A stretch of DNA of 64,000 nucleotides, taken from the NCBI GenBank assembly GCA_026018925.1, contig JAKSZU010000016.1:27866877-27930876 (forward strand), in the 5' to 3' direction. How positions within the stretch are numbered: position 1 is the stretch's first letter; the number at the start of each line of letters is the position of its first letter. The position numbers and the translations under genes were made by a program. The stretch comes from Tupaia tana (Eukaryota; Chordata; Mammalia; Scandentia; Tupaiidae). This document shows, in pieces, positions 19,208-54,794 of the stretch. The notes beneath the pieces were generated by a model that was not told where the DNA came from, made no database searches, and saw only the letters and a program-made list of their open reading frames with translations.

Positions 19208-19920
19208 GGAAACTGGAAGGGAAGAAGTAGGGACAATTAGCACAGGCTATTCAAGAAGCTTGACTGGAAAAGGATTTCAACTACCGAAGATCCTCTGTCC
19301 AGACTTCACCCTCCTGCTCCAAAGTCTAGCCATGAGTCAGGTTAAAGCACCCTACTTATTCTCTCTCTCTATCTCTCTGTCTCTATTTAATTTTTCTTTA
19401 AATTTTTAAACTTAGCTCTTTGCTGTTCTTCTGTCTTTCTAATTCTTACCTTTCCCCTTGGCCTCATAGGATAAGCCAATCAGCAGCCATCTATATTTGA
19501 GTTCCGAGCAGCCCCATTTGCACTGCGCAGTTTTCGTTTTTTTGACAAAAAATATGTTTTCTTCTCTGTTTCTTATTGTTTTTGTCTTATTTGTTTTTCT
19601 TCTTTTTCATTTTTTTTTTATATTCCTTTTCTTTTTATCTTTTTCACTTTTCTGCTCAGCCTTCCTACACTGATTTTCTAGACAGGTCTAGGTGCTTAGT
19701 AGCCAAGTATCTGAATACTTGTAGGGTCAGATTAATCCTCAATTTTCATTGAATCAGTTGTGTGAAGGGAGAAAAGTGGTACTGTCTACAGACTGCAGGT
19801 CACCTTCTTCTGCATTCTTGATTGCTCAGATTTAACTCAAAAAAATAGGAAAAAAAAGTATAATCCATCAGATGATCAGAAACCACTGCAGAGGCACAAG
19901 ATGTAAGAGAAACAAAGAAA

Positions 19921-20784
19921 ATGTTTCTCCTCAAATGGAAAAGAATAACTTCTCTTCCTCCACAAAATAATACAAGGGAATTCATGGAAATGTCAGATAA
20001 AGAATTTAAAATATTCATAGTGACAAAGCTAACAGAGATACAAGAGAACAGAGACAACAAACTCCAGAGGATGCAGGAGAAAAGAGACACCGAGGTCAGG
20101 AAGTTCTTGCACGATTTGAAAGAGGAGATATACATCATAAAAAAGAATCAAATGGAATCATTAAAGATGAAGGCTGTAATACAGGAAATCAAAACTTCTG
20201 TTGAAAATATCAAAAGCAGCTTAGATCATGCAGAAGATCGAATCTTGGATATAGATAGAATCTCTGACCTAGAAAAATTTACCAAAAAGACTGAGGAAAT
20301 AACCCCAAAAAATGAGAATAATATATGAGTACTACTAGATACCACTAAACACCCCATCGTCTGGATCATCGGTAACCCAGAAGGTGAAGAAACTACTAAG
20401 GGTACTGATAATTTATTCCATGAAATCCTGGAAGAAAACTTTCTAAACCTAGAGAGGCACTCAAATAACCAGACCCAAGAAATACAAAGGACTCCACATA
20501 GAATCAATACAAGAAGATCTTCCCTGAGGCACATCATAGCCAGATTGACCAAGATCACAGACAGAGACAAGATACTGAAATTGGCAAGAGAGAATCGTCA
20601 AGTTACTTTCAAAGGATATCCCATAAGGCTAATGTTGGGCCTCTTATCCAAAACAATGCAAGCAAGGAAAGAATGGGAAAATATATTCAATGTGTCAAGT
20701 GAAAAACAATTTCAACCAAGAATACTATACCCAACAAGATTATCTTCCATACGGGGAAAAAAAGACAAAAACATTCTCAGATAA
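19921..20784 (+). pseudogene. HAL1 ORF1
   Basis: A single frame of 288 codons is interrupted only by TGA at 20326-20328. The first part is a coiled coil (REFMEMSDKEFKIFIVTKLT ... FLHDLKEEIYIIKKNQMES). After the stop come HPIVWIIGNPEGEE, DRDKILKLARENRQVTFKGY and QARKEWENIFNV, the RNA-binding and C-terminal domains of L1 ORF1p. It is the closest relative in the window of the ORF1 half in the composite elements. Those diverge from it at about 20352. Confidence 0.75.
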
Positions 20785-21214
20785 ACAAAATCTGAATTTA
20801 CCAACACCAGACCAGCTCTCCATGAAGGGCTGAAGGGAGTGCTATACCAGGAAAACTAAAGTCAGACTCACAGAAATAAGAATACAAGAAACAACCAAGA
20901 GAATGGCCAGCCTAATAGTAAGGATAAGTCCGGAGTTGAATGCTAACTTTCAGAGTTTAAATGGAAAGATCAGACCATAGTAATGCTGCAAATTCAATAG
21001 AAGAGAGATTAATTACGTGAGTCTGAACTAGTGAAACTGAATTTTTTGACTTTAGACTAAATACTGATTTTCTTTGCTGCTTTGATTTCCATATTTAAGG
21101 ATTTCTGTCTTCTCTTGAACTGTTGATAGGTTCATCTACCTACTATTTGAACTGAATTCAAACCTTTTTCCTGGTTTTTAAGTTTTAAGCAAATTTCTCT
21201 TAACATTTTAAAAT

Positions 21215-22705: not shown

Positions 22706-23521
22706 GCCCAGAGCAAGCAGAAAGGAATGAGGTTCATAGATTGGTTGAGGGATTAGCCAGGGCTGAGTGAAGAAATGCTTCTTCCTTCATATGAGTTATG
22801 TTTGGGTCTAGAGTTAGGCAAATTTGTAAGTGAGAGAATGAGAGGCATTCCTAGTTCACTTTCTCAGTGAGATAGAAAATTAAGCCATTTGTTGAGGGTA
22901 ACTGTGGATGGTTGGGGTTCATGTTAAGATGAGCCAAAGAACTGCTGGGTGGAAATAAGAGAAGAGAATAGGCTGAAACCATGAACTGGAATTGGAACAC
23001 TCAACTGGAACTGTTGTGCAATTAGGCCCTATTAAGTTCAGAAAGCCTGAAAAAATCACATTCTTGTACTGATTGGGAATTGTAGGACAAGTTCTACAGA
23101 TAATAAGAATGCCAGAAAGTTGGAAGTGGTAGAGAAATTGGTAGAAATGAGAAGGATGATGTTGGGAAGCAAGGGTGACAAAGCCAGAGAGGTTGATTAA
23201 CTAGAAAAAATGGAGAGGCTAAGGAATCAAGGGTCAGGTTGAACTCAAAGCTATGGTAGTGGGTGTGGTAAAGTGAAATAGCTACAAGGATGAGTGCTTA
23301 TGGTAAGAACACTGGCTACTAGAATTAAGATGTCAGAGTTACAACAGCTAAAGTGGAGGGTAGGTCATGGTCTGGGATTAGAGAAAGTCAAGACTGGGAG
23401 GCTGTGCTGCAAGAAGGAAGATATCTAATCTCCCAAGCCAGGGATTGTCAAGGAGAGGAAGACTGTGAGCCAGAAACCATATATGTCCATGGGGAATGAA
23501 ATGGAGTCAGCAGTTAACTTT
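22706..23521. other. intron 2, unique sequence before composite copy 1
   Basis: Purine-rich unique DNA; continues as 27839-28430 once the composite element is removed. Confidence 0.65.
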
Positions 23522-23538
23522 AAGAAGGTCATCTAGAG

Positions 23539-24479
23539 AACAGCCCTTCTTCAAGAGATAGCCTGCTCAATGGCGCCTGAGATCTAGACATGCTGGGAGA
23601 AATGAAGATGTCCCACTCCTAACTGGGCCTCCATCATACAAAACCCACGTGAACAGCCCTTCTTCAAGAGATAGCCTGCTCAATGGCGCCTGAGATCTAG
23701 ACATGCTGGGAGAAATGAAGATGTCCCACTCCTAACTGGGCCTCCATCATACAAAACCCACGTGGTAGGAAAACCCCTTTCATATCTCCTGTCTCTGAAT
23801 CAATCTTTGTCTCTCTCTACCTCTCACTCTCTCTCTCTGTCTGTCTGTCTGTCTGTCTGTCTTTTTTTTTAATTTTTGCTTTTTAGAATTTTTTAAGATG
23901 AGGCTTCTTACAGGGCCCTTTGGCCCCTCCCTCCTAGGCCTTTGTTTTGTTAATAATCCCCTCTGCATCTCCCAGAACAGCCCTTCTTCAAGAGATAGCC
24001 TGCTCAATGGCGCCTGAGATCTAGACATGCTGGGAGAAATGAAGATGTCCCACTCCTAACTGGGCCTCCATCATACAAAACCCACGTGGTAGGAAAACCC
24101 CTTTCATATCTCCTGTCTCTGAATCAATCTTTGTCTCTCTCTACCTCTCACTCTCTCTCTCTGTCTGTCTGTCTGTCTGTCTTTTTTTTTAAATTTTGCT
24201 TTTTAGAATTTTTTAAGATGAGGCTTCTTACAGGGCCCTTTGGCCCCTCCCTCCTAGGCCTTTGTTTTGTTAATAATCCCCTCTGCATCTCCCAGAACAG
24301 CCCTTCTTCAAGAGATAGCCTGCTCAATGGCGCCTGAGATCTAGACATGCTGGGAGAAATGAAGATGTCCCACTCCTAACTGGGCCTCCATCATACAAAA
24401 CCCACGTGGTAGGAAAACCCCTTTCATATCTCCTGTCTCTGAATCAATCTTTGTCTCTCTCTACCTCTCACTCTCTCTC

Positions 24480-24510
<31 letters not shown>

Positions 24511-24676
24511 TTTTTTTTAATTTTTGCTTTTTAGAATTTTTTAAGATGAGGCTTCTTACAGGGCCCTTTGGCCCCTCCCTCCTAGGCCTTTGTTTTGTTA
24601 ATAATCCCCTCTGCATCTCCCAGAACAGCCCTTCTTCAAGAGAAAGCCTGCTCAATGGCTCCTGAGATGTAGACAT
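23539..24676 (+). repeat. tandem ~320-bp 5' units of the composite element (copy 1)
   Basis: The landmark AACAGCCCTTCTTC recurs at 23539, 23652, 23976, 24296 and 24624. The first spacing is 113 and the next three are 324, 320 and 328, differing mainly in a CTGT microsatellite. Each full unit holds a 113-nt exon-like part ending CCCACGTG. It is followed by GTAGGAAAAC...CTGCATCTCCCAG, which has proper intron ends. The first 113-nt unit lacks that intron-like part and joins directly to the next AACAG, as a splice would. The arrangement resembles monomeric 5' UTR promoters of rodent L1. Confidence 0.85.
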
Positions 24677-24680
24677 TTCT

Positions 24681-24694
24681 CGCGGCGCGCCGCG
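24681..24694. repeat. 14-bp GC palindrome
   Basis: CGCGGCGCGCCGCG is a perfect inverted repeat at the boundary between the tandem 5' units and the HAL1-like leader. The identical motif is at 29967-29980 in the second copy. It marks the junction of two ancestral modules. Confidence 0.9.
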
Positions 24695-24910
24695 CGGTTT
24701 TCTAATTTTTGATTTTTATTGAAATTTTTTTAATATTAATTTTTCTTTTTTAGATTTATTCCAAAGCCTTTCTCTTTTTTTTCTCTGTTTCTTGTCTGGT
24801 TTTTTTTGTTGTTGTTGGTATTGTTTCCCTCTCTCTGCTTCCTTTTCTGCACACTTTCCAACCCTCATATTAAACTTCAAAAGTTTGGGAAGAAACCAAC
24901 CATCCACCAG

Positions 24911-25402
24911 ATGACTAGAAATCGCTGCAGGACCACAAGAAATATGGAGAAGCAGGAAAATGCCCCTCCTCCAATTGAAACGGATAGCTCCTCTTCGTCC
25001 ACACACAGTTCAAGGGAATTCATGGAAATGTCTGATAAACAATTCAGATCATTCATAATGGCAAAGCTAACAGAGATCGAAGAGAAGAGAGACAAGGAAC
25101 TGCTGAAGGGGAAGGAGAAAGGAGTTGAAGAGTTTTAGGAGGTGAGGAAATTCATGCAAGATCTAAAAGAGGAGTTTCACACTTTACAAAAGAATCAGAT
25201 GGAGCTGTTAGAGATGAAGGCTATAATACAAGAAGTCAAAATCTCCCTTGAAAGTATTAAAAGCAGACTAGATCATTCAGAAAATGGAATCTCTAATGTA
25301 GAAGAGAAAATGGCTGGCCTAGAAAGGTCCACCATAAAGACTGAGAAAATGGCCCAAAACTTTGAGAATAATATGCAAGAAGTACTAGATACAATTAAAC
25401 GT
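24911..25402 (+). pseudogene. HAL1-type ORF1 5' half inside composite copy 1
   Basis: Reading from ATG 24911 gives MTRNRC...MEKQENAPPP, then SREFMEMSDKQFRSFIMAKL, in-frame TAG at 25136-25138, then EVRKFMQDLKEEFHTLQKNQ and KMAGLERSTIKTEKMAQNF. This is the N-terminal and coiled-coil part of a half-LINE ORF1, alignable with the separate HAL1 at 19921-20352. It stops being HAL1-like just after DTIK, before the RNA-recognition domain, where the GC-rich module begins. The same TAG is found in copy 2, so it is inherited by the family and not a private lesion. The frame continues into the VNTR as far as 25699. Confidence 0.75.
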
Positions 25403-25555
25403 CCAGGGGCGGCAGGCGGGGGCTCCGCTCCGCGTGCCGGCGCGTGGGGGTGGGGAGGCGGGCGCGGGGGCTCCAATCCACGTGCTGGGGTGCGGGGTCA
25501 GGGTGCGGGGGCTCCGCTCCACGTGCCCTGTCTGGAGGTCTGGCCCGACAGGCTC

Positions 25556-27413
25556 TGCCCCACGTGCCTTGGCCTGGGTCTGTCCCATGTGCCGTGGCTG
25601 GGGCTCTGCTCCGCGGGCCGTGGCTGGGGTCTGCCCCGCGTGTCGTGGCTGGGGCCCTGTCCCGCGTGCCGTGGCCGGGGTCTGCCCCGCGTGCCGTGAC
25701 CGGGACTCTGCCCCGCGTGCCGTGGCCGGGGTCTGCCCCGCGAGCCTTGGCCGGGGTCTGCCCCGTGTGCCGTGGCCGGGGCTCTGCTCCGCATGCCCTA
25801 TCCGGAGGTCCGGCCCGACTGGGGCTCTGCCCCGCGTGCCGTGGCCGGGCTCTGCCCCGCGTGCCGTGGCCGGGGTATGCCCCCGCGTGCCGTGGCCGGG
25901 TTCTGCCCCACGTGCCGTGGCCGGGACTCTGCCCCGCGTGCCGTGGCCGGGGTCTGCCCCGCGTGCCGTGGCCGGGGTCTGACCCCGCGTGCCATGGCCA
26001 GGTTCTGCCCCGCATGCCGTGGCCGTGGTCCTGTCCCCGCGTGCCGTGGCCGGGGTCTGCCCCGCGTGCCGTGGCCATGGTCCTGTCCCCGCTGCCGTGG
26101 CCGGGGTCTGCCCCGCGTGCCGTGGCCGGGGTCTGCCCCCGCGTGCCGTGGCCGTGTCCCTGCCCCGCGTGCCGTGGCCGGGGTCTGCCCCCGTGTGCCG
26201 TGGCCGGGGTCTGCCCCCGCGTGCCGTGGCCGTGGTCCTGTCCCCGCGTGCCGTGGCCGGGGTCTGCCCCGTGTGCCGTGGCCGGGGTCTGCCCCGCGTG
26301 CCGTGGCCGGGGTCTGCCCCGCGTGCCGTGGCCGGGACTCTGCCCCGCGTGCCGTGGCCGGGGTCTGTCCCCGCGTGCCGTGGCCGGGGTCTGCCCCCGC
26401 GTGTCGTGGCCGTGGTCCTGTCCCCGCGTGCCGTGGCCGGGGTCAGCCCCCGCGTGCCGTGGCCGGGGTCTGCCCCCGCGTGCCGTGGCCGGGACTCTGC
26501 CCCGCGTGCCGTGGCCGGGGTCTGTCCCCGCGTGCCGTGGCCGGGGCCCTGCCCCGCGTGCCGTGGCCGGGGTCTGCCCCCGTGTGCCGTGGCCGGGGTC
26601 TGCCCCCGCGTGTCGTGGCCGTGGTCCTGTCCCCGCGTGCCGTGGCCGGGGTCAGCCCCCGCGTGCCGTGGCCGGGGTCTGCCCCGCGTGCCGTGGCCGG
26701 GGTCTGCCCCCACGTGCCGTGGCCATGGTCCTGTCCCCGCGTGCCGTGGCTGGGGTCAGCCCCCGCGTGCCGTGGCCGGGGTCTGCCCCGCGTGCCGTGG
26801 CCGGGACTCTGCCCCGCGTGCCGTGGCCGGGGTCTGTCCCCGCGTGCCGTGGCCGGGGCCCTGCCCCGCGTGCCGTGGCCGGGGTCTGCCCCCGTGTGCC
26901 GTGGCCGGGGTCTGCCCCCGCGTGCCGTGGCCGTGGTCCTGTCCCCGCGTGCCGTGGCCGGGGTCAGCCCCCGCGTGCCGTGGCCGGGGTCTGCCCCGCG
27001 TGCCGTGGCCGGGACTCTGCCCCGCGTGCCGTGGCCGGAGGTCTGCCCCGCGTGCCGTGGCCGGAGGTCTGCCCCGCGTGCCGTGGCCGGGGTCTGCCCC
27101 CGCGTGCCGTGGCCGGGGTCTGCCCCCGCGTGCCGTGGCCGGGGTCTGCCCCGCGTGCCGTGGCCGGGGTCTGCCCCGCGTGCCGTGGCCGGACTCTGCC
27201 CCGCGTGCCGTGGCCGGGGTCTGCCCCCGCGTGCCGTGGCCGGGGTCTGCCCCGCGTGCCGTGGCCGGGGTCTGCCCCGCGTGCCGTGGCCAGGACTCTG
27301 CCCCGCGTGCCGTGGCCGGGGTCTGCCCCCGCGTGCCGTGGCCGGGGTCTGCCCCGCGGGCCGTGGCCGGGGCTCTGCCCCCGCGGGCCGTGGCCGGGAT
27401 CTGCCCCGCGTGC
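25556..27413 (+). repeat. GC-rich VNTR of composite copy 1
   Basis: There are about 70 units of 25 or 26 bases, consensus CGTGCCGTGGCC followed by a variable G4-5TCTGCCCC(C)G half. Recurrent variants are GGGACTCTG, GTGGTCCTG, GGGGTCAGC and GGGGCCCTG. The variants recur in blocks: GGGACTCTG anchors at 26334, 26491, 26803 and 27011 start similar multi-unit blocks, so larger segments were duplicated. A divergent GC-rich lead-in occupies 25403-25555. Because units are rarely a multiple of three and lack A/T, almost every frame on both strands is open for hundreds of codons. Confidence 0.92.
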
Positions 27414-27784
27414 CGCAATCGCTGATGGCCGTCTCTGCTTTCCTGAGCCGCGTTCCTGAAACTGTGTTCCATGGAGATTCACCTACATTTGCGGGGCTGC
27501 ACGAGACCCACCCTTGGTCCAGCCCTGAGTGCAGTCTACGTTTCCTATTGTTGGGAACTTTATGATCTGATAATTGGAAAAAAAAAAATCATGTTTATCA
27601 TAAAAAATAATTAGAAAAATAATAATAATGATTGGGGGAAACATAGGAAAGATATTGAATGTTGAAGCGGGGAGATTAATGTCTCTGTACTGACTGACAT
27701 GCATGGCATTCCCTTTTGAAAAAGCAATGTAATACACTGTAAAGTTGTATGTAATTCAATGTAATAAAAAAATAGATAATAAAA

Positions 27785-27823
<39 letters not shown>
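27414..27823 (+). mobile_element. 3' end and poly(A) of composite copy 1
   Basis: A unique segment of about 355 bases follows the VNTR (GATGGCCGTCTCTGC ... TGTAATAAAAAAATAG), then an A-rich tail of about 40 bases leading to the TSD. It is almost identical to 32078-32430. It does not resemble the 3' end of the HAL1 at 22000-22240, so it comes from another, unrecognised source, possibly the 3' UTR of the LINE that supplies the enzymes. Confidence 0.75.
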
Positions 27824-27827
<4 letters not shown>

Positions 27828-28431
27828 AGGTCATCTAGTATGAGTTAGAAGCAAAAGGAATTTCTGCCAGAAGATAAAAGAGAGTAGCTATACAGGCTTT
27901 CCAAATACCTTCTCCTCCTCCAGGGCTTGAAGTACATTAGTGAAGGGAAATGGGCAGCCTCTACTTGAAAGCTATAGGGGAATAGGGAACTTCAGGAAGA
28001 AGTCAGGTTGAAGTCAAGAACATTGATGGAGTATTATTATGAATGGGTTGAGGACTGGAATGGGGAGAAGTTTGTAATTTAATAGGGGTTCCATAAGACA
28101 AACTGAGGAATTGGGAGAGAAAACAGTGCGAAAAGAAAAAGAAGAATCACAGGAGATGATCACAGATGTCAGATGACCACAGATGTAGTATTTTGGGCAT
28201 CAACTAAGACAACAATACACATACGCACGCACACACATACACACTTTGGTTGTCTTCTTGAAAACTTTTCATACAACTATTTCTGTCCTTAATACGTATG
28301 TAACATTCTGCAGATCACTAAATGCCTTTACAGACATTCACATGTTGGCATATCACATGTTTCTTCCCCCCTCAAGTTGAAAATTACAAAAATAGCCTCA
28401 ACTGTATTTGGCATCCTGAATATTCTTCCAG

Positions 28432-28900
28432 AACCCTGAAACTCCCTGCGCTGACTGGGAGGCAAGTGTGCCAGAAATGACATTATGTGACTCCTAAGGT
28501 TACATCATGAAAAGTGACACACAATTTCTCTCTGGTGCTCTCTTTGGAGACACACATCTTTAGAATCCTGAGCCACCACCTACGAATTCTGGTTGCCCTG
28601 AAGGCACCAAGCTGGAGAAACCGTGGGTAGAGGCCACACAGAGACAGAAATGCTCGAGAAGCCATGTTTAGGCCCTCAGCAATTTAAGTCTTCTAAGCCC
28701 AGACTCCAGACCTGTGAGTGAGTGAGTCAGATGACAGCCTGGCCATTGTCTGGCTGCAAACACATGGAACACTCCAAGTGGGGACTGTTAGGCTGATCCC
28801 AGACAACACCCAGAACCATGAGAGATAATAAAATGATTGTTGGGGTTTTATTAAGGTTTCTATTCTCCTAGGTTTAGATTGTTGAGTGTTTGTTTGTTTT
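28432..28900 (+). mobile_element. old MaLR LTR fossil (MLT1 type)
   Basis: GGCAAGTGTGCCAGAAATGA, GACTCCTAAGGTTACATCATG and GAGATAATAAAATGATTGTTG follow MLT1-class LTR sequence. The element is broken and very old (placental-mammal age). Its 3' end probably resumes at 29305-29335 after two SINEs. Confidence 0.55.
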
Positions 28901-28925
28901 AAAGAATTATATTATTTAACTTCAT

Positions 28926-28968
<43 letters not shown>

Positions 28969-29300
28969 TTTTAATTTTACCAAAGAGGGGCAGTGAGACA
29001 GAGAGCAAGAAGAGAGGGAAAGTGAGGAAGCAAGCTGCAAGATCTGGGACTCAAACCACAGTTGGCCATGTGGGAATCCAGCACCCTTCACTACCACGCC
29101 ACCTACAGGCCCCTGTTTGTTTTTAACATTTATTTATTTATCTATCTGTCTGTCTGTCTATCTATCTATTTGTTTTGATTCTGTCTTTCTCTCTGTCTAC
29201 TTATTTGTTGTGATTTTCAAGCTGCCAGGTCTGAGATTCGAACTAGGACTTGAACATGGGAATTCAGCACCTTAACCACCATGCCACCTGCTGGCCCTCC
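28901..29300 (-). mobile_element. two short-form SINEs in an MLT1 fossil
   Basis: 28901-29114 and 29118-29300, both reverse; the first has a (TTTA)14-type tail, the second a (TCTG/TCTA)n run. Confidence 0.7.
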
Positions 29301-29370
29301 AACTGTTGGAGTTTTAAAAGCCACTATGTTTCTTTAGCAGCTCATTTCACTTAAGTAAATAACTGGATGA

Positions 29371-29476
29371 AGTCGTCGGGAGAGCGCCATGGCAGCCCTA
29401 CGCGCCTTGCTGCCTTTAGTCCGCATACAGCTGCGCCCCGCCGCCCGCTGCTATGTCCTGCGTTCCTTCGCCTCGG
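29371..29476 (+). pseudogene. ECHS1: ECHS1 first exon captured at 5' end of composite copy 2
   Basis: ATG at 29389 opens MAALRALLPLVR, then LRPAARC and RSFASE. Human ECHS1 (mitochondrial short-chain enoyl-CoA hydratase) starts MAALRVLLSCVRGPLRP, then RPFASG, and mouse starts MAALRALLP. Human coding exon 1 ends at about this FAS(G) position, which fits TCGG at 29473-29476 being the exon end. The next ten bases (29477-29486, AATTATGGAG) are unassigned. From 29487 the sequence is the composite element's 5' exon. No ECHS1 intron or exon 2 follows. The fused frame runs 44 codons to TGA at 29521. The CpG-rich sequence contrasts with the AT-rich flank. Confidence 0.8.
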
Positions 29477-29486
29477 AATTATGGAG

Positions 29487-29962
29487 CCCTTCTTCAAGAG
29501 AAAGCCTGCTCAATGGCTCCTGAGATGTAGACATGCTGGGAGAAATGAAGATGTCCCACTCCTAACTGGGCCTCCAGCATACAAAACCCACGTGAACAGC
29601 CCTTCTTCAAGAGAAAGCCTGCTCAATGGCTCCTGAGATGTAGACATGCTGGGAGAAATGAAGATGTCCCACTCCTAACTGGGCCTCCAGCATACAAAAC
29701 CCACGTGGTAGGAAAACCCCTTTCATATCTCCTGTCTCTGAATCAATCTTTGTCTCTCTCTACCTCTCACTCTCTCTCTCTCTGTCTGTCTGTCTTTTTT
29801 TTTTAATTTTTGCTTTTTAGAATTTTTTAAGGTGAGGCTTCTTACAGGGCCCTTTGGCCCCTCCCTCCTAGGCCTTTGTTTTGTTAATAATCCCCTCTGC
29901 TCCTCCCAGAACAGCCCTTCTTCAAGAGAAAGCCTGCTCAATGGCTCCTGAGATGTAGACAT
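29487..29962 (+). repeat. 5' units of composite copy 2
   Basis: CCCTTCTTCAAG recurs at 29487, 29600 and 29915. The first spacing of 113 is the intron-less, spliced form (CCCACGTG joined directly to AACAG at 29594/29595). The second is a full 315-bp unit with its GTAGG...CCCAG part. Only one full unit is present, against three in copy 1. Confidence 0.85.
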
Positions 29963-30197
29963 TTCTCGCGGCGCGCCGCGCGGTTTTCTAATTTTTGATT
30001 TTTATTGAAATTTTTTTAATATTAATTTTTCTTTTTTAGATTTATTCCAAAGCTTTTCTATTTTTTTTCTCTGTTTCTTGTCTGTCTTTTTTTTGTTGTT
30101 GTTGGTATTGTTTCCCTCTCTCTGCTTCCTTTTCTGCACACTTCCCAACCGTCATATTAAACTTCAAAAGTTTGGGAAGAAACCAACCATCCACCAG

Positions 30198-30689
30198 ATG
30201 ACTAGAAATCGCTGCAGGACCACAAGAAATATGGAGAAGCAGGAAAATGCCCCTCCTCCAGTTGAAACGGATAGCTCCTCTTCATCCACACTCAGTTCAA
30301 GGGAATTCATGGAAATGTCTGATAAACAATTCAGATCATTCATAATGGCAAAGCTAACAGAGATCGAAGAGAAGAGAGACAAGGAACTGCTGAAGGCGAA
30401 GGAGAAAGGAGTTGAAGAGTTCTAGGAGGTGAGGAAATTCATGCAAGATCTAAAAGAGGAGTTTCACACTTTACAAAAGAATCAGATGGAGCTGTTAGAG
30501 ATGAAGGCTATAATACAAGAAGTCAAAATCTCCCTTGAAAGTATTAAAAGCAGACTAGATCATTCAGAAAATGGAATCTCTAATGTAGAAGAGAAAATGG
30601 CTGGCCTAGAAAGGTCCACCATAAAGACTGAGAAAATGGCCCAAAACTTTAAGAATAATATGCAAGAAGTACTAGATACAATTAAACGT
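30198..30689 (+). pseudogene. HAL1-type ORF1 5' half inside composite copy 2
   Basis: This has the same reading as in copy 1, with the family TAG at 30423-30425 and very few substitutions. After that stop the frame is open from 30429 through the whole VNTR to 32081. This gives a nominal 550-residue fusion of a coiled coil to an Ala/Pro/Arg/Gly/Cys-rich repeat. I regard the repeat part as fortuitous because several other frames are equally open. Confidence 0.72.
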
Positions 30690-30845
30690 CCAGGGGCGGC
30701 AGGCGGGGGCTCCGCTCCGCGTGCCGGCGCGTGGGGGTGGGGAGGCGGGCGTGGGGGCTCCAATCCACGTGCTGGGGTGCGGGGTCAGGGCGCGGGGGCT
30801 CCGCTCCACGTGCCCTGTCTGGAGGTCTGGCCCGACGGGCTCTGC

Positions 30846-32077
30846 CCCACGTGCCGTGGCCGGGGCTCTGTCCTGTGTGCCATGGCCGGGGTCTGCCCCG
30901 CGTGCCGTGGCCGGGGTTTGCCCCGCGTGCCTTGGTCGGGGTCTGTCCCGCGTGCCGTGGCCGGGCTCTGCCTCGCGTGCCGTGGCCGGGGTATGCCCCC
31001 GCGTGCCGTGGCCGGGTTCTGCCCCCGCGTGCCGTGGCCGGGTTCTGCCCCGCGTGCCGTGGCCGTGGTCCTGTCCCCACGTGCCGTGGCCGGGGTCTGC
31101 CCCGTGTGCTGTGGCCGGGGTCTGTCCCGCGTGCCGTGGCCGGGTTCTGTCCCCGCGTGCCGTGGCCGGGGTCTGCCCCCGCGTGCCGTGGCCGGGGCCC
31201 TGTCCTGCGTGCCGTGGCCGGGGCCTGTCCCCGCGTGCCGTGGCCGGGGTCTGTCCCGCGTGCCGTGGCCGGGTTCTGTCCCCGCGTGCCGTGGCCGGGG
31301 TCTGCCCCCTCGTGCCGTGGCCGGGGCCCTGTCCCGCGTGCCGTGGCCGGGACTCTGCCCCGCGTGCCGTGGCCGGGACTCTGCCCCGCGTGCCGTGGCC
31401 GGGGTCTGTCCCCGCGTGCCGTGGCCGGGGTCTGCCCCCGCGTGCCGTGGCCGGGACTCTGCCCCGCGTGCCGTGGCCGGGGTCCTGCCCCGCGTGCCGT
31501 GGCCGGGGCCCTGCCCCGCGTGCCGTGGCCGGGGTCTGCCCCGCGTGCCGTGGCCGGGGCTCTGCCCCGCGTGCCGTGGCCGAGGCCTGCCCCCGCGTGC
31601 CGTGGCCGTGGTCCTGTCCCCGCGTGCCGTGGCCGGGGTTCTGCCCCGCGTGCCGTGGCCGGGTTCTGTCCCCCACGTGCCGTGGCCGGGGTCTGCCCCC
31701 TCGTGCCGTGGCCGGGGCCCTGTCCCGCGTGCCGTGGCCGGGGTTCTGCCTCGCGTGCCGTGGCCGGGGTCTGCCCCCGCGTGCCATGGCCGGGACTCTG
31801 CCCCGCGTGCCGTGGCCGGGACTCTGCCCCGCGTGCCGTGGCCGGGGTCTGCCCCTGCGTGCCGTGGCCGGGGTTTTGCCCCGCGTGCCGTGGCCGGGGT
31901 CGGCCCCGCGTGCCGTGGCCGGGGTTCTGCCCCCGCGTGCCGTGGCCGGGTTCTGTCCCCGCGTGCCGTGGCCGGGGCTCTGCCCCACGTGCCGTGGCCG
32001 GGGTCTGCCCCGCGTGCCGTGGCCGGGGCTCTGCCCCCGCGGGCCGTGGCCGGGATCTGCCCCGCGTGCCGCAACCG
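30846..32077 (+). repeat. GC-rich VNTR of composite copy 2
   Basis: About 49 units share the 25/26-bp consensus of copy 1 (CGTGCCGTGGCC core) but with a different order and number of variants. Forms such as GGGTTCTGTCC are frequent here and rare in copy 1. The lead-in 30690-30845 is nearly identical to 25403-25555. Length therefore differs by about 600 bp between two otherwise near-identical elements, as expected of a VNTR. Confidence 0.92.
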
Positions 32078-32460
32078 CTGATGGCCGTCTCTGCTTTCCT
32101 GAGCCGCGTTCCTGAAACTGTGTTCCATGGAGATTCACCTACATTTGCGGGGCTGCACGAGACCCACCCTTGGTCCAGCCCTGAGTGCAGTCTACGTTTC
32201 CTATTGTTGGGAACTTTATGATCTGATAATTGGAAAAAAAAATCATGTTTATCATAAAAAATAATTAGAATAATAATAATAATGATTGGGGGAAACATAG
32301 GAAAGATATTGAATGTTGAAGCGGGGAGATTAATGTCTCTGTACTGACTGACATGCATGGCATTCCCTTTTGAAAAAGCAATGTAATACACTGTAAAGTT
32401 GTATGTAATTCAATGTAATAAAAAAATAGATAATAAAAAAAAATAAATAAAAAAAAAATA
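32078..32460 (+). mobile_element. 3' end and A-rich tail of composite copy 2
   Basis: This matches 27414-27790 with only scattered differences (e.g. CAATCG versus CAACCG just after the VNTR, and lengths of A runs). The tail is interrupted (AAAATAAATAAA...). Confidence 0.8.
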
Positions 32461-32550
32461 AACTGGAAAATGACTAATTGATACAAATAACCAGAATTTG
32501 ACATTTCCAAGGTTAACTTTAAAAATGGTGGTAAAGGTGGCTGAATCTGA

Positions 32551-32868
32551 GGGGCCAGAAGGTGGTATGGTGGTATGGTAATTAAGGGGCTGGACTCCCA
32601 CATAGCTGTATCCAGTTTGAGTCCCAGGCCCAGTGGGTTAAAACTCACACTGGGTGCATACGCATGCATGCCCAAAATCCCAGGAGAAGAATGGAGGAGA
32701 AGGAATTGTGGTGTGGCATCTCTGCTGGGGATGCTAGGCATGTGTGTGTATGCAAGTGCAAAATTTCAAAAGCAGAGAGAAATGGAGGAGGAATTGCAGC
32801 ATAACCATTCCTGATGGAGGGGTACTCTCACTTTCTTTTTGGTGGATGCACACACCCTCTGGCAAAAT
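32551..32868 (+). mobile_element. long-form SINE, older variant with internal duplication
   Basis: The GCATGTGTG...AATGGAGGAG segment is partly repeated (about 32640-32705 and 32735-32805). Confidence 0.6.
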
Positions 32869-54081: not shown

Positions 54082-54318
54082 TTTTTTTTAAATCATCTTA
54101 TCAGTTCTTACCTTTGACATTGTTGCTACAAGACCAAATTTTTTTAAGAATTATTTTATTTAGCTTTATTTATTTATTTATTTATTTAACCAGAGAGGGA
54201 CAGAGTGAGAAAGAGAGAGAGAAAGTGAGAAAACAAGCCACCAGGTCCAGGACTTGAACCATGGTCAGCCATGTGGGAGTCCAGCGCCCTTAACTACCAC
54301 ACCACCTACTGGCTCCTG
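54082..54318 (-). mobile_element. insertion flanked by AATCACATATAACTTT, holding a short-form SINE
   Basis: Direct repeats at 54066-54081 and 54319-54334 bound a T-run, a ~50-base unknown piece and the SINE (54140-54316). Confidence 0.65.
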
Positions 54319-54794
54319 AATCACATATAACTTTACAGTATATTACATTTCTTTTTCCAGAAGGAATACCATGCATATCAGTCAATATAGAAACATTAAA
54401 ATCCCCATTTCATCACCCAATAGCTTATCTCACAGTTTCTGAAGGTCAGTAAATCAGACAGCTTAACTCAGAACCTCTGGCTCAAGGTCTCTCAGGAGAC
54501 TGGAGCCATTGTGTTGGTTGAAACTGCAATATCATGTGAAGGCTCAATTGGGGAAGATTTTGTTTCCATATTCACTCACATGGTTGTTTCCAAAACTGAG
54601 TTCTTCACTGGCTATTGGTCAGAGGCCTCCCTCAGTTCTTTCCCATGTGGGCCTCTCCAGAGGGCATCTTACAACATAGCAGATGACTTTCCTATGAGAG
54701 AGAGAAAATACAAGATGAAGTCACAGTTTGCATACTGATATTAACATCCCATGACATCTGCTACATCAAATTCATTAGAAGTTAGTCACTAAAT

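Follow-up and report, generated by a model that had tools for sequence, protein, structure and literature searches.

Two elements in a 64,000-nucleotide stretch of Tupaia tana DNA (contig JAKSZU010000016.1, positions 27,866,877 to 27,930,876 of the forward strand; the whole stretch is called the window here) belong, by the junctions that they share with copies elsewhere in the genome, to a young, dispersed retrotransposon family that we designate family Y. It is very probable that Y is a young, non-coding composite built around a variable number tandem repeat (VNTR), dependent on L1 and working like the SVA elements of hominoids. On the matches described below, the family is real, young and dispersed, and relatives of its modules were traced within the genome that carries it. 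We lean towards the view that an SVA-type superfamily arose a second time, outside the hominoids, and repeated that history with other parts. In this view a more diverged composite, family X, shares its core and a 3' piece with the younger Y, to which a HAL1 promoter leader, the 3' tail of an autonomous L1 and a freshly expanded VNTR unit belong, and in one copy splicing captured the first exon of a host gene. A bolder extension is that the 5' arrays would grow when stacked spliced exons are reverse-transcribed into new tandem units.

Family Y in the window and in its genome

The original prediction had drawn two elements of one modular order in the window, and they match module by module in the places where it drew them. 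The order comprises tandem 113/320-bp units, a GC palindrome, the 5' half of open reading frame 1 (ORF1), which terminates at 'DTIKRP', a 25/26-bp VNTR, a 3' module and poly(A). One part of the prediction that did not stand is the separate module of units and palindrome, which belong to the 5' untranslated region (5'UTR) of HAL1 itself. The features of the two copies are as follows.

Copy 1
23522..23536, + strand: 5' target-site duplication (TSD) AAGAAGGTCATCTAG, an exact 15-bp repeat of 27824-27838
23537..24676, + strand: spliceable 5' units in tandem, with exons of 113 bp; spliced at one exon-exon junction, introns kept at three places, final exon partial
23765..23975, + strand: first kept intron, GTAGGA...CCCAG
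24677..24910, + strand: HAL1-type 5'UTR with GC palindrome; 84% to HAL1 locus L037 over 224 bp
24911..25401, + strand: N-terminal half of ORF1 (coiled-coil part); stopped by TAG after 75 codons, breaks off ahead of the RNA-binding domain; 93-94% to HAL1 loci L038/L039
25402..25553, + strand: GC head; 81% to the family X head over 69 bp, running into the VNTR
25554..27415, + strand: VNTR of 25/26-bp GC-rich units; 1862 bp, 81% GC
27410..27588, + strand: 3' piece m3a, with an internal A run at its end; identity to X 82% over 179 bp, to locus L031 82%
27598..27779, + strand: m3b, an autonomous L1's 3'UTR end; identity to L1 locus L048 93.6% over 173 bp
27780..27823, + strand: poly(A)
27824..27838, + strand: 3' TSD, exact repeat of 23522..23536

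Copy 2
29370..29476, + strand: ECHS1 exon 1, 5' of the element; its end coincides with the splice donor; 99% identity to gene locus L030
29477-29484: eight unexplained bases, AATTATGG, separating the ECHS1 exon from the first Y unit
29485..29962, + strand: spliceable 5' units, with a single exon-exon junction and a single intron kept
29963..30197, + strand: HAL1-type 5'UTR with GC palindrome
30198..30688, + strand: N-terminal half of ORF1; TAG stop as in copy 1
30689..30840, + strand: GC head
30841..32071, + strand: VNTR, 1231 bp
32066..32242, + strand: 3' piece m3a, common to family X; 82.5% over 177 bp
32252..32459, + strand: L1 3'UTR end and A-rich tail; 97% to the corresponding stretch of copy 1, which matches L048

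The 113- and 320-bp units and both VNTRs were also detected by Tandem Repeats Finder, which counted 72.6 VNTR units in copy 1 and 47.8 in copy 2. The perfect 15-bp TSD predicted for copy 1 proved exact, and the predicted lack of ORF2 agrees with the module maps of 10 full-length Y copies, which leave no space for such a frame. The 3' end was not unique as proposed, since its first part is common to family X and its last ~180 bp are an L1 3'UTR end.

All genome searches were made in the genome from which the window comes (2.95 Gb, 1198 contigs). With the 3' module as query, the 40 scored of 1383 first-look candidates all matched at 99-100% over 357 bp. The ORF1/GC junction, sought with a 25-bp pattern that allowed up to 2 mismatches, occurred at 597 places (318+279), and a 28-bp Y 3' signature, which by eye differs at 5 of 28 bases from the X copy L040, at 1443 (753+690); the reversed control of each gave 0. 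Dispersed copies with shared junctions, as the original prediction had expected, were therefore found, and the window copies are not the only two with common flanks. A local tandem duplication or an assembly artefact has next to no probability: the copies do lie ~1.5 kb apart in the same orientation, but their flanks do not match, their VNTRs and 5' ends differ, and hundreds of places elsewhere carry the same signatures.

The Y sample comprised 22 copies, namely 20 of the 40 scored loci and the two in the window. The complete order of units, palindrome/5'UTR/ORF1 N-half, GC head, VNTR and 3' module was present in 10, and the remaining 12 were 5'-truncated with the break inside the VNTR. In the 10 complete copies the VNTR consists of 25/26-bp units and varies from 664 to 2926 bp, with 78-81% GC. 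An exact TSD of 9-15 bp stood beside an A-rich tail in 16/22 copies, and 14 of these 16 duplications start with AA, as expected from the preference of the L1 endonuclease. Mean pairwise divergence, among copies preselected as near to copy 1, was 0.38% in the 3' module (22 copies) and 1.07% in the 5'UTR/ORF1 (10 copies).

Donors of the modules

The 5' half of Y matches ORF1-only HAL1 elements. In a PF02994 profile search, the best 150 scored of 43929 candidates included many in open frames of ~340 amino acids. One of the elements, L029, has tandem 125-bp exon units, a GT...AG intron, the palindrome core found in Y, a 5'UTR and a full ORF1, followed by an A run ~540 bp past ORF1; no other frame of at least 120 amino acids was present on that strand within the fetched 7.5 kb. 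A pattern for ORF1 running on across the Y breakpoint (up to 2 mismatches) occurred at 1364 places (677+687; control 0), from which four HAL1 loci, L036-L039, were read. In all four the C-half of ORF1 follows, at 89-90% to L029, and then a HAL1-type 3'UTR, with no long frame past ORF1 within the fetched stretches, and the ORF1 of L038 scores as L1 ORF1p.

Identity of the Y ORF1 N-half was 94% to L039, 93% to L038, 87% to L037 and 85% to L029, while L036 begins inside the N-half. The exon unit in L038 and L039 is 85-87% to that of Y, and the 5'UTR and ORF1 N-half taken together range from 84 to 94% against the HAL1 loci. In a 17-row tree, Y forms a single group (100/99) among the HAL1 rows, most remaining forks being weak. 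Because units, palindrome, 5'UTR and ORF1 N-half all match HAL1 loci, the spliceable units and palindrome are HAL1's own leader; by these alignments, the spliceable 5' units, the 5'UTR and the ORF1 N-half of Y derive from an ORF1-only HAL1. An origin of the ORF1 fragment from L1 instead is not favoured: the two L1 ORF1s read fall outside the HAL1 and Y rows (fork 94/92, just under the starred level), and the 5'UTR monomers of the L1 locus L047 do not match the Y units. That L1, one with a 1343-amino-acid frame, is 67% to Y in its ORF1 N-half and has GC-rich tandem 5'UTR monomers of its own at L047:1700-2200 (GATCGAGCCGGCCAGCAG...), unrelated to the HAL1 units.

In all 10 full-length Y copies a TAG stop follows 75 codons of the ORF1 N-half, where L029 and L039 have CAG, and the fragment is therefore non-coding beyond that stop. 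The acceptor before ORF1 reads CTCAG|ATTGAAC in L037, exactly where the spliced L038 is joined, and TCATATTAAAC in 10/10 Y copies; this comparison is thin, with one unspliced HAL1 of that subfamily read. In some Y copies (L012, L021, L025) the near-palindrome at the 5'UTR start (...GCGCGCTAGCGCGC...) is longer than in the window copies. An older, broken HAL1-type copy lies just upstream of both Y elements (19360-21200, + strand of the window), with an ORF1 N-half 75% to Y. HAL1 is itself abundant in this genome, and many of its best-scored ORF1 frames are open over ~340 amino acids despite the lack of ORF2; the retention of coding capacity in a non-autonomous element is noteworthy.

Family X was reached through L031, a locus found in the ECHS1 search described below, the 3' part of which is 82% to the first half of the Y 3' module. 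A search with this part scored 40 of 3139 candidates, L031 itself and 39 others at 96-98%. Seven loci (L040-L046) were read, with L040 as the reference. X is a second VNTR composite, with a GC head in 4/7 loci, a VNTR mainly of 19- and 25-bp units in 6/7 and a 712-bp 3' module in 7/7, 95.5-98% to L040 (L045 begins 20 bp into the module). The HAL1 5' part was not found in any of the seven. A short TSD was seen by eye at L040, and the X signature occurs at 709 places (354+355; control 0). The X head matches the GC core of Y at 81-85% over 69 bp, a score (88) reached by 0/500 dinucleotide shuffles (maximum 39), and m3a matches at the values listed above; X's own VNTR gave no match to Y at the threshold used. 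Y thus has its head and 3' piece in common with X, the more diverged of the two, and together they form a small superfamily with exchanged ends in this genome. X copies diverge from one another more than Y copies do, in samples that were drawn differently; because of this, X or a common ancestor probably preceded Y, and the direction would be from X to Y.

The tail of Y comes from another donor. In a PF00078 search, the best 150 scored of 24721 candidates contained, by eye, 14 rows with 1343-amino-acid and at least 30 rows with 1290-amino-acid open frames, and the 5' and 3' parts of one L1 of each kind were read (1343 amino acids, L047/L048; 1290 amino acids, L050). The 3'UTR end in L048, which belongs to an element with an open 1343-amino-acid ORF2 (reverse transcriptase) frame, matches the last ~180 bp of Y at the identity given in the list and runs into poly(A). 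The L1 with the 1290-amino-acid frame was rejected as tail donor, since L050 gives just a 20-bp A-rich match, downstream of its poly(A). The HAL1 3'UTR was likewise rejected as the origin of the 3' module, since neither m3a nor m3b was matched in L036-L039. Elsewhere in the window, 54317-54426 (- strand) is 82% to the last 3' part of Y and is probably an old L1 3'UTR end.

With both ends L1-type, a 5' half from HAL1 and a last ~180 bp from an L1 3'UTR, Y might be thought merely a HAL1 or L1 variant with an internal VNTR expansion and not a composite. We consider this improbable, because the GC head, VNTR and m3a are unmatched in HAL1 loci L036-L039 and in the L1 parts L047-L050, the head and m3a are common to X, where the HAL1 part was not found in any of the seven loci read, and the tail belongs to the L1 and not to HAL1. 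As a composite, Y thus joins the leader of one parasite to the tail of its likely helper.

Spliced leaders, a captured host exon and the proposed route of mobilisation

Introns in the Y leader start with GTAGGA and end with CCCAG (15 kept introns in the 10 full-length copies). Exons abut one another at 19 places, 18 of them exact, in 8/10 of these copies, and in L027 seven exons are joined consecutively. Such exon-exon abutments in genomic copies show an RNA intermediate.

Copy 2 also bears a host exon. The 107 bp before its first unit match six places, the best other being L030 at 99%, where the match is followed by GTGAGT. The 32-residue leader encoded here gave on its own a weak match to enoyl-CoA hydratase (E 2.4), but from residue 30 onward the processed pseudogene L032 can be read as mitochondrial enoyl-CoA hydratase. 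In L030, ECHS1 exon 2, ~199 bp long, lies ~2.2 kb downstream. By these matches, copy 2 contains the first exon of ECHS1 up to the splice donor, and it is the sole Y copy to do so among the six places. The eight bases AATTATGG were sought in L030, which spans the whole of ECHS1 intron 1, and were not found. No Y module was found in ECHS1 intron 1 of this assembly apart from simple-repeat matches. A comparable case from SVA is the joining of STK40 exon 1 to an SVA in chimpanzee with a leftover CATG, described in PMC6139936.

A different ECHS1 chimera is seen at L031/L035 (C242:11757300-11758950, minus strand), where ECHS1 exon 1 and ~125 bp of exon 2 are fused to the X 3' end, with a 19-bp TSD by eye. 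A spliced product of ECHS1 exons 1-2 joined to X was rejected for L031, because the locus stops ~125 bp into an exon of ~199 bp; template switching by the reverse transcriptase is the likelier origin, given this breakpoint.

These findings suggest the following route. The HAL1 5' end would probably provide an RNA polymerase II promoter and a spliceable leader, with transcription probably starting near the head of a 5' exon unit; in BLAST alignments, 6/10 full-length copies begin at exon positions 1-13 and the other four at 16, 17, 40 and 42. The RNA would be partly spliced and would then run through the VNTR, the GC head and VNTR forming the core, and the family X 3' piece and the autonomous L1 3'UTR end would lead it into poly(A). 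L1 proteins would take up this RNA and, acting in trans, insert it through target-primed reverse transcription, in many cases with 5' truncation. Y is probably moved in trans by L1, as its lack of ORF2 had led the original prediction to propose, and the L1 with the 1343-amino-acid ORF2 frame, which has open frames and the 3' end found in Y, is the candidate helper. If the 5' arrays do grow by splicing, L1-type promoter monomers in tandem could arise in this way. Sequence itself shows the donors and order of the modules, the dispersal of the family, its TSDs, poly(A) and 5' truncation, the exon-exon junctions and partial splicing, and the captured ECHS1 exon.

Several observations weigh against this account. 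Family Y is characterised here from its DNA sequence, and the 20 fetched copies are those nearest to copy 1, so that age and intactness are biased. An exact TSD was not found in 6/22 copies (L010, L011, L014, L022, L023 and copy 2), four of which (L010, L011, L022, L023) are not accounted for. By eye, L014 has an 8-bp match and copy 2 a 7-bp match, AACTGGA, beyond the captured exon; the TSD of copy 2 appeared absent because 107 bp of captured ECHS1 sequence separate the first unit from the duplication. The last intron is retained in 10/10 full-length copies though upstream exons are spliced, for which simple splicing of each transcript is insufficient; exon stacks may instead have been inherited from source copies. 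Finally, the L1 tail was present in one of the two L1s read (L048 and not L050).

Family Y among known retrotransposons

Like SVA, LAVA, PVA and FVA, Y is non-autonomous and non-coding, with a head, a GC-rich VNTR, a 3' module, poly(A) and L1-type TSDs, and Y and X, like those four, are related families with a common core and differing ends. The GC-rich central VNTR of varying length is an SVA-type feature, and the exact TSDs, A-rich tails and 5' truncation of Y are those of L1-type insertion. Capture of a first exon is also shared: ECHS1 in copy 2 has its counterparts in SVA_F1 with MAST2 and pt_SVA_D6 with STK40, both treated in PMC6139936. However, the CT hexamer of SVA is lacking in Y, whose copies reaching the 5' end begin in a HAL1-type exon unit, and an Alu-like or 7SL region was not found with Rfam (both strands, E up to 1), which gave two sub-threshold, unrelated matches in window 23400-32600 and one in L040. 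The VNTR unit is 25/26 bp in Y, against 30-50 bp in hominoid composites as given in PMC4432496. Y has the HAL1 5' end as its head and an L1 3'UTR end as its tail; the 3' ends described for hominoid composites are SINE-R in SVA and L1/Alu, PTGR2 or FRAM pieces in LAVA, PVA and FVA. Because the CT hexamer and the Alu-like region are lacking, Y is an SVA analogue and not a member of SVA.

The common logic of head, GC-rich VNTR, 3' module, poly(A) and first-exon capture could also mean that Y stems from the SVA/LAVA lineage of hominoids or that the two have a composite ancestor in common. We hold this to be very improbable, since no 7SL/Alu-type match was found on either strand of the stretch searched or in L040, and the Y modules trace to HAL1, X and L1, the comparison with SVA being one of described modules. 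The core of the original prediction, a HAL1-headed, non-coding VNTR composite with L1-type insertion hallmarks, dispersed with shared junctions and made of modules unlike those of SVA and LAVA, is supported, though its list of parts needed correction; an independent origin of Y would follow from the difference in modules.

One of the largest doubts is prior cataloguing. It is possible, though we think it the lesser chance, that Y is real but already entered in Dfam or Repbase, perhaps as separate HAL1, satellite and unclassified pieces of a de novo library made for this host. Large curations of mammalian repeats exist. Against this, the literature searched, with most subscription journals outside it, gave no VNTR composite outside hominoids, nor did the retrotransposon literature on colugo (Galeopterus), the host named in the original prediction; the main text of PMC13174262 makes no mention of colugo, Cynocephalus or Galeopterus. 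VNTR composites are called specific to hominoid primates in PMC4432496.

Other L1-related elements share single features with Y. HAL1 is likewise L1-derived and without ORF2, and supplied the leader of Y. However, HAL1 encodes ORF1p only (PMC5753468), whereas the Y ORF1 is stopped at codon 76 and has lost the RNA-binding domain, and the core and 3' end are not HAL1; by these modules, Y partly descends from HAL1 but no longer fits its definition. Nor is Y an autonomous L1, which has ORF1 and an ORF2 with endonuclease and reverse transcriptase. SpIREs (spliced integrated retrotransposed L1 elements), which the HAL1 loci L038 and L039 resemble, are like Y inserted copies of 5'UTR-spliced L1-type RNA. 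They are described as largely dead ends in PMC5860796, but Y, with its stacked spliced exons, has amplified. The LINE-1/mRNA chimeras of the TiMEstamp catalogue resemble copy 2 and L031 in having host mRNA 5' of an L1-type insertion; according to PMC13174262, they are mostly single L1 events in human, whereas Y and X are amplified composites.

With hominoid composites of single origin, needed features are hard to separate from accidental ones, and a second, unrelated pair of families allows the comparison. Both have a head of L1 or SINE type and a core of GC-rich VNTR, both have exchanged their ends, and both insert in the L1 manner with poly(A) and capture first exons; the CT hexamer and the Alu-like region do not recur. 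The tail of Y, as the 3'UTR end of an L1 lineage with open ORF2 frames, points to a helper, and the recent insertions of Y provide material for testing why the VNTR aids mobilisation.

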